A DNA stretch of 64,000 nucleotides from Pseudobdellovibrionaceae bacterium (lineage in GTDB: Bacteria > Bdellovibrionota > Bdellovibrionia > Bdellovibrionales > Bdellovibrionaceae): contig CANFQX010000004.1 in the NCBI GenBank assembly GCA_947449255.1, positions 62,001 to 126,000 of the forward strand. Direction: 5' to 3'. The position numbers were made by a program, and so were the translations under genes. Positions 3,755 to 17,631 of the stretch are shown here, piece by piece. The notes beneath the pieces are model-generated. The model was given only the letters and a program-made list of their open reading frames with translations, was not told where the DNA came from and ran no database searches. Numbering within the stretch: position 1 is the first letter of the stretch; each line of letters starts with the position of its first letter.

Positions 3755-6084
3755 TGAGTCGCGAACTTGAACGAAAACTCGCTGAAGCCACCGAACTTGC
3801 AAAACACCATCGCCATGAGTTCGTGACGTTGGAACACATCCTTTTAGTGCTCACAGAGTCACCCATCTTGGTTGAAATTTTGGAAGCCTGCGCCGTCAAT
3901 GTGCAAAAACTTCGCCTGGATTTGCGAGAGCACCTCAAAGTGGGCATTCCTCAAATTACTGATGAACAACTGGCCTCTTACGGTGGATTTGAATCTTGGA
4001 ATCCAGAATTCACCCTGGCCTGCCACCGTCTGATTCAGCGTGCAGCCATCCAAATGAAAAGCGCCGGACGAAATCAAATCAGCGAGGGCGGCTTGTTGGT
4101 TTCCTTATTTTACGAACAAGACTCCCATGCTGCATTCGCCTTGGTCAGACAGGGACTCACTCAATTTGACATTATCAATTATATTTCTCATGGAATCTCA
4201 AAAGATGGCAAAGACCATGAGGCGCCACCCGCTGGCACTCGCCCCGATTTTCAACAATCCTCCGCAGAGGGTGGCGAAGAAGCTCGCACCTCCCCACTTG
4301 AAAGTTTTTGTGTGAATCTAAATGAACGGGCACGTCAGGGAAAAATTGATCCCTTGATTGGTCGTGAAGATATCTTAGCCCGCACTGTTCAAATTCTTTG
4401 TCGTCGAACAAAAAACAATCCCCTTTTTATTGGTGAGCCCGGTGTCGGAAAAACAGCCATCGCCGAAGGCCTCGCACAAAGAATTGTAACTGGTGATGTT
4501 CCTGAAAAACTAAAAGGTGCTGTGATTTATTCTTTGGATTTAGGAAGTCTGCTGGCCGGTACTAAATTTCGTGGCGATTTCGAGGGCAGACTTAAAGCCG
4601 TCGTCAAAGAAATCGGCAAACGGCCCCACAGTATTTTATTCATTGATGAGATTCACACCATTGTTGGTGCCGGTGCCACAAGCGGAGGCTCCATGGACGC
4701 CTCAAATCTCTTGAAACCAGCTCTTGCCAATGGCGACATCAGTTGTATTGGCTCGACCACGCACAATGAATACCGCCAACATTTTGAGAAAGACCGTGCC
4801 CTGAATCGGCGCTTTCAAAAAATCGACGTCAATGAACCCACGACACAAGACTGTATTCAAATTCTGAAGGGACTTCGCAAAGTTTATGAAGAGTTTCATC
4901 AAGTCACTTTTTCAGACGAGGCCTTGAAAGCTGCCGTTGAATTGTCCCAAAAACATATTCACGGTAAACTTTTGCCAGATAAAGCTATCGATGTCTTGGA
5001 TGAAGCTGGAGCTTATTTTAGACTTAAAAATGAAAGCGCCACCGAGCTGCATATTGATGTTCCTGAAATTGAAGAGATCATTTCAAAAATCACCGGTTTA
5101 CCCATAGCGAATATCTCTTCCACAGAAAAAACTGCACTCAGAGACCTGGATAAAAAACTCAAAGCCCTCATCTTTGGACAAGACGAAGCCATCGATCGGC
5201 TTGTTTCAAATATTAAGTTTGCACGCAGTGGTTTAGGACGTCCAGAAAAACCCATTGGCAGCTTTCTTTTCACTGGCCCCACTGGGGTCGGAAAAACTGA
5301 GGTCTGCAAACAGTTAGCCCATATCATGGGTGTCCACTTTGAGCGCTTTGATATGAGCGAGTATATGGAAAAGCACTCCGTTTCAAGATTGGTTGGAGCA
5401 CCTCCGGGATATGTTGGTCACGAAGAAGGCGGCCTGCTGACGGAAGCTGTGACCAAACATCCATATTGCGTTTTACTTTTGGATGAAATTGAAAAAGCTC
5501 ATCCCGATATTAATAACATTTTATTGCAAGTGATGGATGCTGGTCGATTGACAGACAGCAATGGTCGAGTTGCCATATTTAAAAATGCCATTGTGATCAT
5601 GACCTCTAATGCCGGCGCTTTGGAGACATCCCGTGGTTCGATTGGCTTGATTGATGACAACCGCAGCAGTCTTTCCTTGGAAGCAATTAAAAAGTCATTT
5701 TCTCCTGAATTTATCAACCGACTTGATGCTGTAGTTTCGTTCAAAGATCTCAATGACGATATGATTTTGAAAATCACGCAAAAATTTGTGGACGAATTAA
5801 AGATGGCACTGCTGAACAAGCAAGTTGAACTGAATGTTTCACAAGACGCTGTTAAATGGCTCATGAAAAAAGGCTATGACAAGATCTATGGTGCTCGTCC
5901 CCTTGCTCGCTGCGTGGATGAACATTTGAAAAAGGCCTTGGTTGACGAACTCCTCTTCGGACGGCTCGTCGATGGCGGCCGCGTCAATGTTGAATTAGAA
6001 AAAGACATGCTTAAATTTTCATTCACATCCGTGGCTAACATGGGCTCGGGACCTAAAACCAAGAAGCAGCCGGTCACAATGTAG
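3751..6084 (+). CDS. clpA: ClpA, ATPase subunit of the ClpAP protease
   Basis: 777 residues, the normal ClpA size. It has an N-terminal Clp repeat domain ([28 protein letters not shown]), a linker near 140-185, AAA1 with Walker [10 protein letters not shown] and Walker [10 protein letters not shown], and AAA2 with Walker [10 protein letters not shown] and Walker [13 protein letters not shown]. The D2-small domain has the sensor-2 GARPLAR. It unfolds substrates delivered by ClpS and feeds them to ClpP, which is not in this window. There is no ClpB-type middle domain, which separates it from the disaggregase. Translation is coupled to clpS by overlap. Confidence 0.97.
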
Positions 6085-10477: not shown

Positions 10478-11986
10478 ATGTTTTCTCGCAAATGGTGGAT
10501 TACATTTGGTGTTTTCGGTCTCCTTTTTTTTAGCGGACTGGGTGCTTATATTTTCTTTGATCAACGACAAAATCCAGAAGACTATTCCCCCGCTCGCTCC
10601 CAAAGCTCACAAAAAGATTTAAGTTCAAAAAAACCAAAATTTTCTCAAAAAGACAGTCCTCGCGGTCTGGAAAACTCTTTCATTACTTCCAAGACTGATA
10701 AAGTCGAAGATGAACCCAGTGCCCTCTTCAATGACCCTGCCATTTCACAAGCCTGGGGGTTAAAAAAATCAGACGCAGCCAGAGCCTGGTCCATCACGAA
10801 AGGCAGTAAAGATATTCTGGTCGCAATCATCGACACAGGAATAGATGTCGACCATGAAGATCTGCGCCACAACGTCTGGGTCAATAGCGGCGAAACAGGC
10901 CGTGACAAACAAGGCCATGATAAATCGACAAATGGAATTGATGATGATGGCAATGGTTTCATTGATGATTTACATGGTTGGAATTTTGTCTCAAATAACA
11001 ACAAGCTTGATGACAATCACGGCCATGGAACACATATCGCCGGTATTGTTGGCGCGGAAGCTGGCAACGGACTGGGCATTATTGGAATTTCTCCACAAGT
11101 GAGTCTGATGATTTTAAAATATTATGACCCCAAAGTTCCAAATACGGACAACTTAAGAAACACTGTTGCTGCAATTAGATACGCCGTAAAAATGGGTGCC
11201 AATATTATTAACTATTCCGGTGGGGGCACTGAATTTTCTCAAGAAGAACATGATGCTGTCGCTGAAGCCGAAAGAAAAGGCATCCTGTTTGTTGCCGCTG
11301 CCGGCAACGAACGTTCCAATTCAGATCAACATCATTACTACCCGGCTGATTATAAACTTAGAAATATAATCTCCGTCACAGCAATTGATCCCTCAACGCA
11401 AGTCCTTTCTTCATCGAACTACGGAGTCGATACTGTTGATATCGCAGCTCCAGGACAAAATATTCTTTCTTGCCTGCCAGGCAATGCCTATGGATACATG
11501 ACCGGGACATCTCAGGCAACGGCCTTTGTCACGGGTGCTGCGGCACTGGTGATGGCTCACAAACAGTCCTTCAAGGCGGAAGATGTAAAAAAATACATCC
11601 TATCAACTGGAGATGCACAAACTCAGCTTGCATTAAAAACAAAAACATCTCGGCAGCTGAATCTTTATAAAGCCTTAACTATTTTAGATCAGGGTGTTTC
11701 TGCAACTGGCGTTGTTGCTGCCAACACGCAAAATATGAAAACTTTTTCTGCCAATCCCAATGAAATAGAAAATGTAAATTCAAATACAAACCAAAAAAAT
11801 GACGAGGGCTCAGACAAAAGCGCCACAGAGATCAGCCACTTCGGCAAATCCTTAATGAGTGCGATGTCACCAAAGCCTGAGGGAAAAAGTAAGGCGCTCA
11901 AACCTGAAGGGCAAAAGCTTGAAGGCCACAAGCTTGAAAATCAAAAATTTGACTCAAATAAATTGGGTGCAAAACAAGAAAACTAG
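10478..11986 (+). CDS. Subtilisin-like serine protease (S8), membrane-anchored
   Basis: 502 residues. A short basic N-terminus and one hydrophobic segment (residues 8-27) give a signal-anchor or signal peptide. The S8 catalytic residues are visible: D119 in VAIIDTGID, H183 in HGHGTHIAG, the oxyanion N277 in AAAGNE and S345 in MTGTSQATAF. After the domain (about 400) comes an Asn/Lys/Ser-rich low-complexity tail with short PEG/LEG/LEN repeats near the C-terminus. A secreted or periplasmic protease is expected. The stop TAG shares its CTAG with the stop of the convergent pseudouridine synthase gene. Confidence 0.93.
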   Translation: MFSRKWWITFGVFGLLFFSGLGAYIFFDQRQNPEDYSPARSQSSQKDLSSKKPKFSQKDSPRGLENSFITSKTDKVEDEPSALFNDPAISQAWGLKKSDAARAWSITKGSKDILVAIIDTGIDVDHEDLRHNVWVNSGETGRDKQGHDKSTNGIDDDGNGFIDDLHGWNFVSNNNKLDDNHGHGTHIAGIVGAEAGNGLGIIGISPQVSLMILKYYDPKVPNTDNLRNTVAAIRYAVKMGANIINYSGGGTEFSQEEHDAVAEAERKGILFVAAAGNERSNSDQHHYYPADYKLRNIISVTAIDPSTQVLSSSNYGVDTVDIAAPGQNILSCLPGNAYGYMTGTSQATAFVTGAAALVMAHKQSFKAEDVKKYILSTGDAQTQLALKTKTSRQLNLYKALTILDQGVSATGVVAANTQNMKTFSANPNEIENVNSNTNQKNDEGSDKSATEISHFGKSLMSAMSPKPEGKSKALKPEGQKLEGHKLENQKFDSNKLGAKQEN

Positions 11987-12669
11987 GAAATCTCCTCAAA
12001 GACTTTAAAAAATTCATGAGGGATGGGAGCTTCAAATAAATGCTCACGGCCCTCAATGAAAATTTTTAAAGCCCTTGCATGCAAAAACATTCTATCGGTG
12101 CCATAAATATCTGACATTCGACTGTTGTATTTAGAATCTCCATACCGACTATCACCAACAATACTGTGATTATCCATGGCGGAGTGCTTGCGAATTTGAT
12201 GTTGCCTGCCTGTAAATAGCTTCACTTCAATCATAGATAGATATTGCGAAGATTTAATCAATCGATAATCCGTACGCGCCGAAATGCGGTCCTTGGCTGC
12301 GCCTTGAGGATTTTTTCGCCCCTCAGCCTTGTCAGAAATTGGTTTTGACCAACTTTCCCATTGCGATGAAGTATTGTCTGATATTTTGAGTGTTCCTCGT
12401 AAAATCGCCGTATAATTTTTTTCGCAGGTTTTTGATTGAAATTGCTCGGCCAATTCCTTTGCCGCTTTTGAATTCAAGGCTAAAATTAGAACCCCACTGG
12501 TTTCCTTATCTAATCGATGAACTAAAAAAAGGTCTTCAAATGTTCCCGGTTTAAGTTGCCTTCGAAGCAGGGCGCAGACATCTTGCGGGTCATTATGAAC
12601 ACTCACCCCCACGGGCTTGTTGATCACGATCCATGAAGTGCCTTGCGCAAGGATAGGCAACTGAATCAT
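11983..12669 (-). CDS. RluA-family pseudouridine synthase
   Basis: 228 residues. The catalytic motif is LVHRLDKETSGVLIL, containing the conserved Asp of RluA enzymes, and GRQHQIRKH follows as the family's second motif. There is no N-terminal S4 domain, so it resembles the short RluA/RluC-core type that modifies uridines in rRNA or tRNA; the exact target cannot be read from sequence. The start overlaps the helicase stop by ATGA (12666-12669), so it lies in the same operon as the helicase and the zinc-ribbon protein. Confidence 0.92.
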   Translation of the reverse strand: MIQLPILAQGTSWIVINKPVGVSVHNDPQDVCALLRRQLKPGTFEDLFLVHRLDKETSGVLILALNSKAAKELAEQFQSKTCEKNYTAILRGTLKISDNTSSQWESWSKPISDKAEGRKNPQGAAKDRISARTDYRLIKSSQYLSMIEVKLFTGRQHQIRKHSAMDNHSIVGDSRYGDSKYNSRMSDIYGTDRMFLHARALKIFIEGREHLFEAPIPHEFFKVFEEIS

Positions 12670-14717
12670 TTAATCACTGTTTTGCCGTTGGCCTTGTTTT
12701 CCAATTTACTATCTATCTTAAGATTCAAATTAGATAAAAAGCTCGAAACTAGATCTTCACGATCTTGTCCCGTCACAGGGCGAGCCCCCATTGGAAACTC
12801 TTTGTACAAGGCGACAGGAATTTCTAATAAAAACCTTGAAGGTGTCGAAGGTCTCACAACGCCATTTTTTTTACGTTGCTGACAACGAGACATCACTAAT
12901 TTTTGCTTCGCGCGAGTGACGCCAACGTAAAACAATCGACGTTCTTCATCGATATCCGAACCTAAATTTTTATGCGGCAACAAATCTTCTTCAAGACCCG
13001 CTAAAATCACTATTGGAAATTCCAAGCCTTTGGAAGCGTGTAAGGTCATGAGTTGAACCTTGTTCTGATTGGCTTCATCTTCATTGAGATCATCACGCAA
13101 GAGCATGCAATCAATAAAGCTTTTAATATATTCAACTTCATAGGCACGACGACCTAAATAGGAATCTAAAATCCTTCCAAGAATTTCAACCACCATCCAT
13201 TTTTTCTCAGCCCCCTTGGGGTCTGTGGCCGAGCCATAGACATAATCTCTATAGCCAAGGTCTGAAAAGATCTGAACCATTTTGGCTCCAGGTGAAGAAC
13301 CTACATTAAAATCTAAAATGTTTTTGGGAAGCTCCTCAATAAAATTCATTAAAAAATCAATGGCAAAGCCGGCTTTTTCTTGGATTTCAGCTTCTCGCCA
13401 TAATCGGCAGGCATCCATAAATGTAAGACGTTTTTTTTGCGAGTACTCTGTCAGCTTATCCAACGTTGTGTCACCCACTCCACGGGGCGGGACATTGATA
13501 ATTCGTCTTAAGGACACTTCATTGGGCGCCAAAGATTGCTTTAGGTAGGCCATCAAATCTTTGATCTCTTTACGATCAAAGATAGAGGTCCCACCTGAGA
13601 TGTTGTAGGCTATGCCGGCCCTACGCAATGAAGACTCAATCAAACCTCCTTGAGTGTTTGATCTGTACAAGATTGCTAAATCCTTGAGCTGAAAATCCTG
13701 ACGTTGAAAGTGCAATATTTCACTGACTACGAATTCGCACTCATCTTCTTCACGCTCTAGGATAAAAACTTCGGGCAACTCACCCGTTGTCTGAGAGGCC
13801 TCCGCTTTAAGAACTTTTCCATGACGATTTTTATTTTTTGAAATGGCCGCATTAGCGACATCTAAGATTTCTGAAGAAGAGCGATAGTTTCTTTCTAACT
13901 TGATCACCTCGCAGTTTTTAAATTCCTGAGGGAAATTTAGAATATTTTTTACCTCAGCACCCCTCCACCCATAAATGGACTGGTCATCGTCGCCAACCAC
14001 GGTGATATTATTATGAGCTTTGCTAATTTGATGAATCAAATCCATTTGCATGCGGTTGGTGTCTTGAAACTCATCCACCATCAGCTGAGAAAACTGATTT
14101 TGAACTTTCTCAAGGATTTCCGGATGCTCCTTAAATAACTGTAAGGGCTTAATCAAAAGCCCTTCGAAATCCACAACACCCAAGTGTTCTAGGCGCTTTG
14201 CGAATTTTGGCGTCAAGATTTCAACCATTTCATGGTATTCGTCAAAGCCCTCGGTCACTGGTGCTAAACCTGTGCGCCGATCGTTGATCATCGATAATAT
14301 TTTATCGAGATCAAATTTATCTTTTCCAGAATTTTTAATATCTTTGATCAATTCTTTTAAAACAGCATTGCAATCGGTCTGATCGACAATACCAAAATAA
14401 GGGGATAGACCTGCATGCTTATGAAAGCGACGTAATATTTGCAACCCAAAGGAATGAAAAGTTCCAGCCCACAAGCCATTGCCAGCGCTGCCCAACTTAT
14501 GACTCACGCGGTGCTTGAGTTCTCTGGCTGATTTATTTGTAAAGGTCAATACACAGACTTCAGAAGCCTGTGCCACTTTTTCTGAAATCATGCGCCCAGT
14601 TCTGGAAACCAAAACAGTCGTTTTTCCCGAGCCAGCGCCTGCTAAAATAAGCAAAGGGCCGTAATTGTGCTTTACGGCCTTTTGTTGCTCAGGGTTTAAT
14701 CCTTTAAGCCAATCCAA
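12666..14717 (-). CDS. Rep/UvrD-family superfamily 1 DNA helicase
   Basis: 683 residues with all SF1A motifs: Q-motif NPEQQKAV, motif I LAGAGSGKTT, motif II MVDEFQDTN, motif III GDDDQSIYGWRGA, LERNYRSS (IV), LMTLHASKGLEFPIV (V) and RRLFYVGVTRAKQKL (VI). It unwinds DNA 3' to 5' in repair or replication restart. It ends soon after motif VI with an unstructured tail. The ~70-residue Tudor-like C-terminal domain of UvrD/PcrA, which binds RNA polymerase, is absent; the length fits Rep. The gene immediately upstream encodes a small protein with a Tudor-like segment. Confidence 0.94.
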   Translation of the reverse strand: MDWLKGLNPEQQKAVKHNYGPLLILAGAGSGKTTVLVSRTGRMISEKVAQASEVCVLTFTNKSARELKHRVSHKLGSAGNGLWAGTFHSFGLQILRRFHKHAGLSPYFGIVDQTDCNAVLKELIKDIKNSGKDKFDLDKILSMINDRRTGLAPVTEGFDEYHEMVEILTPKFAKRLEHLGVVDFEGLLIKPLQLFKEHPEILEKVQNQFSQLMVDEFQDTNRMQMDLIHQISKAHNNITVVGDDDQSIYGWRGAEVKNILNFPQEFKNCEVIKLERNYRSSSEILDVANAAISKNKNRHGKVLKAEASQTTGELPEVFILEREEDECEFVVSEILHFQRQDFQLKDLAILYRSNTQGGLIESSLRRAGIAYNISGGTSIFDRKEIKDLMAYLKQSLAPNEVSLRRIINVPPRGVGDTTLDKLTEYSQKKRLTFMDACRLWREAEIQEKAGFAIDFLMNFIEELPKNILDFNVGSSPGAKMVQIFSDLGYRDYVYGSATDPKGAEKKWMVVEILGRILDSYLGRRAYEVEYIKSFIDCMLLRDDLNEDEANQNKVQLMTLHASKGLEFPIVILAGLEEDLLPHKNLGSDIDEERRLFYVGVTRAKQKLVMSRCQQRKKNGVVRPSTPSRFLLEIPVALYKEFPMGARPVTGQDREDLVSSFLSNLNLKIDSKLENKANGKTVIK

Positions 14718-14735
14718 ATTATTTTTTCCTATACC

Positions 14736-15176
14736 CTAAACGCGATTATGAATCAAAGAGCGGACTTCATCTTCAAAGACCACTTCAATTTTATCATTCA
14801 TTGCATCTTTGATGAATCCCATCCCAAATTTAGGATGTTGCAATTTAGTGTTTTTATTGAACTTGGATTTCATATTGTAAGTCACCATGGGAACTGTTTC
14901 ATTCGACATCAACATGTCGTATTCATTGCGATGACTTGATTTTCTTGATTTAACAGATTCCTCACGCTTTTTAGCAGCGACTCCAGTGAGTGGCTTACCG
15001 GCACGAGTTTGTGATTTTGGAAGAGAATATGATTTCTGAGAACCACAAATTTCACATTTGATTTTTGCAGCCGTCGCCGAAGTGTGGGCTAAAACCACAT
15101 GATATCTATCAGCATCACATTTTTTACAAAATGCAAAAAAAGATTTCGCGACGGGGGGGAGAGTGTTCATCGTCAT
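14736..15176 (-). CDS. Zinc-ribbon plus Tudor-like (DUF3553/PcrA-CTD-like) small protein
   Basis: 146 residues. Near the N-terminus are two CxxC pairs (FCKKCDA and CEICGS, residues about 16-44), a zinc ribbon. The middle (48-105) is basic and probably disordered. The C-terminus reads LQHPKFGMGFIKDAMNDKIEVVFED, then RSLIHN, close to the HPxFGxGxV...KVxVxF pattern of DUF3553 and of the PcrA/UvrD C-terminal Tudor domain. The start is supported by AGGAAG upstream. It ends 18 bp before the helicase gene, so they are likely cotranscribed. Domain calls come from visible motifs; the link to helicase or RNA polymerase is inference. Confidence 0.7.
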   Translation of the reverse strand: MTMNTLPPVAKSFFAFCKKCDADRYHVVLAHTSATAAKIKCEICGSQKSYSLPKSQTRAGKPLTGVAAKKREESVKSRKSSHRNEYDMLMSNETVPMVTYNMKSKFNKNTKLQHPKFGMGFIKDAMNDKIEVVFEDEVRSLIHNRV

Positions 15177-15267: not shown

Positions 15268-16200
15268 TTAAAACTGCAACTTAGAGCGATAAATTAGCAA
15301 CTTCTCGTTCAAGTCCTTTTGGGCAATCTCACCCGTATTTAAAAAAAAGGGACCCTGCCCTGATTCTATTTTCCTTTGCAGATCCAGCATACTGCTTTCA
15401 CTTTGAGGATCTATGTACTCATCCGTGGAGCCATAAGCCTCCAAAAAGGCCAAATCTGGCTCTTTATTGAAAAACTTCTCCCAACAGTGGGTATTGACCT
15501 GAACTCGATAAGTTATAGTCTTAGCATGAGAATGCACTGGAGCGTAAGCCCCAATCACCTCTAAATGACCATAATGCGAATGAAGTTTTAATGCCGGGCT
15601 GCCCCATTGGGTCATTCCAGTGCATTGCTGGACATTGGCATACCATAAACCAAAGGCTTTGGACATAAAACCCAGTCCATAAAGCTGTTCTTCTTTAGGC
15701 AGCAGCGAATTCACTGAGCACAAATTATGGGCAGCCCACTCCCCTTTGTGCATGGTGGGAATAATAATAAAAAGCGACAAGGGCACCCAATCGAGTTCAT
15801 CGAGAGATTCAACCTCTTTGAGTACTTTTGAGGTTCGAATAGGGCTTCCCGTTGCCGGAAACTTTTTTGGATCTAAGATTTCTCGAAGTATTTTTGAAAG
15901 TGCCCGGGGCTTTATTGCAAAGCCAGCTACAAAACCGGGGACGACTGCGCAATCATAAAAAACCCAGCGAGGCATTGCCATGTTCGAAGGGCCAAAGGCC
16001 CTTTCTTCCAACGAGTAGATGCGATCCGCAAAGGCAATCTCTCTGACATCAAGAGGATCCTTAATAATAGGATTTTGAGGAAACCAATCCAAGCGATGAA
16101 AAGATCCGGGCTGAGCAATTTTATTTTCATGCCGAACGAAAACATACGGCTTAATATCTTCACTGTTCATCCAGCTTGCTTTTTTTAAAAGCTCATTCAT
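15268..16200 (-). CDS. Uncharacterised 310-residue cytoplasmic protein
   Basis: I do not recognise the family with confidence. No signal peptide or membrane segment is visible. It has two His-rich strands, LKLHSHYGHLEV and APVHSHAK, and a central WVPLSLFIIIPTMHKGEW stretch. The layout faintly recalls acetoacetate-decarboxylase-like folds, which I cannot verify. It lies 54 bp downstream of fumC on the same strand and is probably the last gene of an SDR-fumC-this-gene operon. Codon use looks like that of its neighbours. Confidence 0.75.
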   Translation of the reverse strand: MNELLKKASWMNSEDIKPYVFVRHENKIAQPGSFHRLDWFPQNPIIKDPLDVREIAFADRIYSLEERAFGPSNMAMPRWVFYDCAVVPGFVAGFAIKPRALSKILREILDPKKFPATGSPIRTSKVLKEVESLDELDWVPLSLFIIIPTMHKGEWAAHNLCSVNSLLPKEEQLYGLGFMSKAFGLWYANVQQCTGMTQWGSPALKLHSHYGHLEVIGAYAPVHSHAKTITYRVQVNTHCWEKFFNKEPDLAFLEAYGSTDEYIDPQSESSMLDLQRKIESGQGPFFLNTGEIAQKDLNEKLLIYRSKLQF

Positions 16201-16254: not shown

Positions 16255-17631
16255 TCACACCATTTTTTCTGGTCTCACTATCTTATCAAATTCTTCGCCA
16301 GAGAGGAGTCCAAGATTAATAACTTCCTCACGCAAACTTGTGCCATTTTTGTAGGCAGACTTAGCGACTTTCGCTGAATTATCATAGCCAATATAGGGAT
16401 TTAGCGCCGTCACCAACATCAAAGACTGCTCTAAATTTTTTTGAATTTGCTTTAGATTTGGCTTTAGGCCCAGTAAACAATGATCCGTAAACGATTCACA
16501 GGCATCAGCAAGCAATCTTATAGAATTCAAGACGTTAAAAACAATCATGGGTTTAAATACATTCAATTCAAAATGTCCGGAGGCCCCGCCAATGGAGGTC
16601 GCCACATGATTTCCCATGACTTGGGCACAGACCATCGTCATGGCCTCGCTCTGAGTTGGATTCACTTTTCCGGGCATAATTGAACTCCCCGGTTCATTTT
16701 CCGGCAACAAAAGCTCTCCGATCCCACAGCGCGGACCAGATCCCAGCAGTCGGATGTCATTGGCGATCTTCATCAATGACACTGCCACAGAATTCAAAGC
16801 TCCACTGAGCTCCACCAAAGCGTCATGAGCTGCCAGGGCTTCGAATTTATTTTCCGCCGTCACAAAGGGAATCTGAGTTTCCTTCGCAATAGCAAGAGCC
16901 ACCTCCACCGCAAACTTGGGATGAGTGTTTAAGCCCGTTCCCACCGCAGTGCCGCCGAGGGCCAACTCATACAGGGAGGGCAAAGTCTTTTTCACTCTTT
17001 GAATTCCATGCTTCAATTGCGTTGCATATCCGGAGAACTCCTGCCCAAGAGTCAAAGGTGTCGCGTCCATCAAGTGTGTTCGCCCGATTTTTATAATCTC
17101 ATTAAATTCAGTTTGTTTTTCTGCGAGCGCTAGGTGCATTTTGCTGATCATTGGCAACAACCGACTAAAAATCTGCTCGACGACAGCAATATGCATCGCC
17201 GTTGGAAACGTATCATTGGAAGACTGCCCCTTATTGACATCATCATTGGGATGAATCTCATGGCTGGGCAAATTCAAGTTCAGCAACTGCATAGCACGAT
17301 TTGCAATCACTTCATTGGCGTTCATATTGGTCTGAGTGCCAGACCCCGTCTGCCAAACGACCAAGGGGAAATGCTGGTCTAATTGACCGCCTATGACTTC
17401 ATCAGCTGCTTGAATGATAAGATCTGCTTTTCGATCTTCCAAAACTCCCAATTGCCTGTTGGTTTCTGCTGCACATTTTTTAATTATCCCTAGGGCTCTG
17501 ATCATTTCCCTGGGGAAAAGATCTCCCCCAATACGAAAATTTTCCTTTGATCTTTGAGTCTGTGCTCCCCACAATTTATCGTCGGGAACATTCACATCAC
17601 CAAAAGAATCTTTCTCAATGCGAAAACCCAT
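16255..17631 (-). CDS. fumC: Fumarate hydratase class II
   Basis: 458 residues, the usual size. Diagnostic motifs are [32 protein letters not shown] (catalytic His region) and the signature [13 protein letters not shown] containing the catalytic Ser loop. [11 protein letters not shown] separates fumarase from aspartase and argininosuccinate lyase. It converts fumarate to malate in the TCA cycle as a homotetramer without an iron-sulfur cluster. It follows the SDR gene by 25 bp on the same strand. Confidence 0.97.

Follow-up and report, generated by a model that had tools for sequence, protein, structure and literature searches.

A small zinc-ribbon protein of the Bdellovibrionota with a predicted PcrA/UvrD-type Tudor domain, a candidate adaptor between RNA polymerase and DNA repair

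The helicases PcrA and UvrD carry at their C-terminus a Tudor domain (PF21196; PDB 5DMA, 6YI2, 7EGS, 7EGT) that binds RNA polymerase, and in Geobacillus PcrA the substitutions H681A, W684A, K712A and L714A each severely cut this binding (PMC5397179). The PcrA domain docks on a ‘helicase interaction motif’, [VIL]DxxTGE[VIL][VILT], present in RpoB and in UvrB, where its glutamate is more variable, and UvrB and RNA polymerase compete for the PcrA Tudor domain through this one motif (PMC8318588). A PcrA-type Tudor domain is also found on a non-PcrA protein, the Y-family polymerase DinX of M. tuberculosis (DUF3553, PF12073), where the RNAP-binding residues are kept and have been interpreted likewise (PMC6511836). 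The Tudor-like domains of CarD, Mfd (RID) and RapA are further small beta-barrels that bind RNA polymerase, however for CarD and Mfd the contact site is the beta1 region and not the TGE motif (PMC8318588, PMC5397179).

The locus described here lies in a 64,000-nucleotide stretch of a Pseudobdellovibrionaceae bacterium (contig CANFQX010000004.1, positions 62,001 to 126,000; hereafter the window), in which all genes named below are on the minus strand. A small open-reading frame of 146 aa with an ATG start (14736-15176) is separated by 18 bp (14718-14735) from a 683-aa UvrD/Rep-family helicase with a TTG start that lacks a C-terminal Tudor domain (12666-14717), and the open-reading frames reproduced exactly the coordinates and the spacing given in a first-pass annotation of this DNA. 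We looked for a terminator-like site in the 18-bp gap and found none inside it, a promoter scan at the locus gave scores near shuffle level, and in Bdellovibrionaceae the small gene and the Tudor-less helicase are probably produced together. The last 4 bp of the helicase gene (12666-12669), with its stop, are shared with the start of the next gene, which encodes an RluA-family pseudouridine synthase (11983-12669; PseudoU_synth_2, E 1e-28), and this overlap suggests translational coupling; in one relative (L064) the RluA-family gene is on the opposite strand, so the overlap arrangement is not conserved. Directly upstream of the small gene lies a conserved 310-aa protein of unassigned family (15268-16200; neighbour cluster c1, 58 of 86 loci), which has no Pfam or NCBIfam match, followed by the class II fumarate hydratase gene fumC (16255-17631; TIGR00979, 766 bits, above the cut-off).

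Relatives of the small protein are tripartite: they begin with a zinc ribbon, continue through a basic linker of variable sequence and end in a conserved domain. The four cysteines of the ribbon core (C17xxC20 to C41xxC44; 15045-15128) are invariant in 87/87 relatives and would form a zinc-binding site; the four-cysteine Elf1/ELOF1 ribbon of Pfam (Zn_ribbon_Elf1, PF05129) matches 27 of 30 members weakly (best E 6.5e-4), below its cut-off, a generic resemblance only. The linker (residues 55-97; 14886-15014) is poorly conserved, with 14% mean identity to the uvrC-linked relatives described below, and has a pI of 10 in a protein whose overall pI is 9.7. The C-terminal domain (residues 98-146; 14739-14885) conserves H114, F117, G118, G120, F134 and L141, and its HPKFGxG...KIEVVF segment occupies residues 114-134, so that the zinc ribbon and the HPxFGxG...KVxVxF segment which the first-pass annotation had read from the letters were both located. 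No Pfam or NCBIfam model covers the protein. Taken alone it gives only sub-threshold matches, to zinc-ribbon models and to DUF3553 (residues 113-145, E 0.02; 14.9 bits against a gathering cut-off of 20.3 bits), and it has no match to PF21196, for which the best relative gives E 0.0011. None of the papers covered by a literature search describes the protein.

Comparison of profiles places the C-terminal domain with the PcrA/UvrD Tudor domains. Aligned by hhalign to the C-terminal domains of Bdellovibrionota PcrA proteins, the small-protein profile reached 97.2% probability (E 3e-11), compared to 0.2% for the reversed profile, 0.1% for the N-terminal half and no more than 32.8% for any of 30 column shuffles, a resemblance which therefore exceeds chance. 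In profile searches of the PDB the best three chains for a 30-member family alignment were all UvrD C-terminal domains (E 0.08-0.4), and for a phylum-wide alignment the best four chains were all UvrD (E 0.0021 to 0.26). The full-length model, built on a shallow alignment of a restricted set of sequences, was poor (pLDDT 46.9, linker <50) and was left unused. Modelled on its own with AlphaFold2, the domain folded mainly into beta strands (pLDDT 81.8, pTM 0.59), a fold call that rests on the one confident model of five, the other four having pLDDT 65-47. With this model the first three Foldseek ranks were all UvrD Tudor structures (T. thermophilus UvrD with UvrB, the E. coli UvrD Tudor domain, and E. 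coli UvrD with an RNAP lobe; probability 0.99-1.00, E 0.1-0.3). VIA-align Z scores were 5.3 and 5.0 for UvrD, 5.0 for RapA, 4.9 for CarD and 4.8 for PcrA, values inconclusive when taken alone; the CarD and RapA fold matches span Z 4.1-5.0, and no sequence homology of the small protein to CarD, Mfd or RapA was shown. Profile, PDB search, domain model and fold search thus agree on a PcrA/UvrD-type Tudor domain, as the first-pass annotation had proposed from resemblance. This is a known domain in a new architecture: in PcrA and UvrD the Tudor domain forms the end of a helicase, whereas here a protein of its own, 146 aa long, carries it after a zinc ribbon. Unlike DinX, this protein includes no polymerase, and it falls below the DUF3553 cut-off.

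The four PcrA positions required for polymerase binding are shared by the small protein. In the alignment H681 corresponds to H114 (87/87 relatives), W684 to F117 (87/87, with phenylalanine in place of tryptophan throughout), K712 to an arginine or lysine at position 139 (87/87; 46 R, 41 K) and L714 to L141 (86/87). On the partner side, RpoB of the window genome (L154) contains an exact docking motif, IDESTGEII; a second, neighbouring DxxTGE segment in the same protein is a near copy, LDPNTGEAL. The UvrB of this genome (L151) has a degenerate motif, IDPLTGQLI, in which Q replaces E, and a search of the remaining proteins encoded in the window gave no docking motif. The small protein may dock on the beta subunit of RNA polymerase.

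The helicase downstream has complete UvrD_N and UvrD_C regions (UvrD-helicase, E 2e-76; UvrD_C, E 3e-66) with no PcrA_UvrD_tudor match, and its chain stops about 70 residues past the last domain. Its orthologues, in which the N-terminus reads MDWLKGLNPEQ, terminate likewise, in line with the original description of a helicase without a Tudor domain. E. coli Rep is also a UvrD-family helicase lacking this domain; the window helicase shares 37-39% identity with Rep proteins annotated on plasmids, and scores about equally against the NCBIfam models for rep (547 bits, cut-off 951) and pcrA (552 bits, cut-off 911), far below both cut-offs. The same genome also encodes a PcrA of 766 aa (G000:C5), the C-terminus of which matches PcrA_UvrD_tudor (PF21196, E 1.7e-8) and E. 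coli UvrD, and all of 16 further PcrA orthologues from the family and the order have kept this domain. A maximum-likelihood tree places the window helicase in a Tudor-less clade that is split from the branch of PcrA and E. coli UvrD with 100/100 support and takes in a sequence from a family outside the order (L149); E. coli Rep forms a long branch of unsure position and does not group with the window helicase. The Tudor-less clade is thus old and separate, and because a Tudor-bearing PcrA coexists with it, the window helicase does not represent a PcrA that has lost its Tudor domain. The first-pass annotation had suggested that the link to polymerase may have passed from this helicase to a separate partner, the small protein. 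In that form the reading is rejected, given the Tudor-bearing PcrA together with the spread of the small protein through the phylum away from the helicase.

Across Bdellovibrionaceae the small protein was detected, at least as a domain match, in 66/66 genomes, and in 60 of the 66 (tables matched by hand) the two genes adjoin in the same orientation with under 250 bp between them. The exceptions are a genome with about 1.2 kb between them (G011), one whose contig looks rearranged (G026), two with the small gene and no helicase (G040, G041) and two incomplete genomes with neither (G002, G032). The insert of about 1 kb in G011 (L064:4078-5115) holds an opposite-strand ORF of 180 aa (4427-4969), the start of which resembles that of a secreted protein. 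In the Bdellovibrionota as a whole the profile matched 209 of 241 sampled genomes (176/189 of the good ones), although some of the weaker matches probably belong to a paralogue with a lysine-rich tail. No such helicase was detected in 35 of the 39 stretches examined around loci outside the family; in the other four (families f5, f7, f9) a Tudor-less helicase lies 0.8-1.9 kb downstream, one to three genes away. The pairing proposed in the first-pass annotation therefore holds as a tight arrangement specific to Bdellovibrionaceae, where the two may work together, and was not detected at most of the loci read beyond. The small protein is thus widespread apart from any Rep/UvrD gene, which the annotation itself had named as a finding that would refute its idea. 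A match scan of genome contigs with the small protein returned Bdellovibrio only, and a mobile or viral origin was rejected, with no match in phages, plasmids or viral contigs.

The close spacing in those 60 genomes, and the helicase one to three genes downstream in three further families, could mean that the small protein works specifically with the Tudor-less helicase, the two jointly rebuilding the motor and the polymerase plug that PcrA holds in one chain, much as the first-pass annotation had suggested. In other Bdellovibrionales 19 genomes have both genes, 5 the helicase only, 5 the small gene only and 8 neither, a mild association (Fisher p 0.03, uncorrected for kinship, from a tally made by hand from presence tables). 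However, each gene also occurs alone, the small gene for instance in G040 and G041, most of the phylum has it away from such a helicase, and a Tudor-bearing PcrA is kept beside an old Tudor-less clade, so we consider this partnership rather unlikely as the explanation of the small protein.

Gene neighbourhoods point to a second context. In Bdellovibrionales there is a stable block of fumC, (one gene), the 310-aa protein and then the small gene, which makes the contact with the helicase look like a later tightening; the 310-aa gene is directly upstream of the small gene across the family, and is present at 11 of the 39 loci read elsewhere. Outside the order, uvrC is divergent to the small gene in 22 of 25 loci (L105-L115, L118-L120, L122-L124, L126-L130), with less than 150 bp between them in 19, and a gene of the UDG superfamily is often nearby (cluster c6; 14 loci), as is uvrB in four. 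Between families with this arrangement mean identities are 38% for the small proteins and 40% for UvrC, which implies that it outlived much sequence change. Two repair-gene contexts in different lineages, uvrC and a UvrD-family helicase, favour a role in repair or conflict over a link to one helicase. Our preferred reading, which we hold at about even chances, is that the small protein is a free-standing Tudor adaptor which binds RNA polymerase, or else UvrB, in the service of DNA repair. Against it, neighbouring genes are inherited together, so that the pairing with uvrC across families may be one arrangement, counting as a single event, and in Bdellovibrionales fumC and the 310-aa gene adjoin the small gene with equal conservation. 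Also against it stand the many partners of Tudor/SH3-like folds, DNA among them, the TGQ in place of TGE in UvrB, the poor full-length model and the single confident model of the domain.

Alternatively, the protein could be of a DNA-binding or nucleoid type: ribbon and linker would hold DNA, and the Tudor-like domain would either do the same or associate with itself, with no part for RNA polymerase. The high pI of the protein and its basic linker would suit such a function. So would the paralogue, which fuses the same Tudor-like domain to a histone-H1-like tail rich in K, A and P. In the window genome it is encoded on contig C20 (L008:1489-2160, minus strand), where it adjoins an IF-1-like gene; its tail consists of 19-25% K+R, orthologues are present in L155-L164 and L166, and it has no Pfam or NCBIfam match. 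The paralogue is the second match in most Bdellovibrionaceae genomes, confirmed by reading in 12. Nevertheless, the conserved surface of the small protein is the polymerase-binding face of PcrA, which DNA binding alone does not need, and we regard a purely DNA-binding function as improbable.

A wider claim would be that of a dedicated, phylum-wide transcription-repair coupling adaptor, whose Tudor domain plugs into RNA polymerase and recruits separate repair enzymes, docking and helicase or nuclease activity being placed on different proteins. The recruits would then be the Tudor-less Rep-like helicase in one family and excision-repair proteins in others; we think it doubtful in this full form. 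A protein that instead competes for the docking motif of RNA polymerase or UvrB, limiting the access of PcrA, would use the same docking residues as PcrA, and there is a precedent in the competition of UvrB with polymerase for the Tudor domain of PcrA through one motif (PMC8318588), but this leaves the conserved zinc ribbon unexplained and is very unlikely.

As a free-standing adaptor, the small protein would use the same Tudor face as PcrA to attach to the helicase interaction motif in the beta subunit of RNA polymerase, and perhaps to that in UvrB, whilst the zinc ribbon and basic linker would touch nucleic acid or a second protein such as a repair enzyme. It could thereby bring DNA-repair factors to the transcribing polymerase or regulate their access to it, and in Bdellovibrionaceae it may help to recruit the Tudor-less Rep-like helicase.

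Bdellovibrio is a predatory bacterium, and the small protein, present in nearly all of its sampled relatives, may connect transcription with DNA repair as an adaptor that has so far been overlooked. The coupling of repair to transcription by UvrD/PcrA-type docking is disputed in bacteria (PMC8318588). If our reading is true, a Tudor protein whose docking residues are retained phylum-wide, beside excision-repair or helicase genes, separates docking from unwinding, and deletion of one small gene would make the question of coupling testable.
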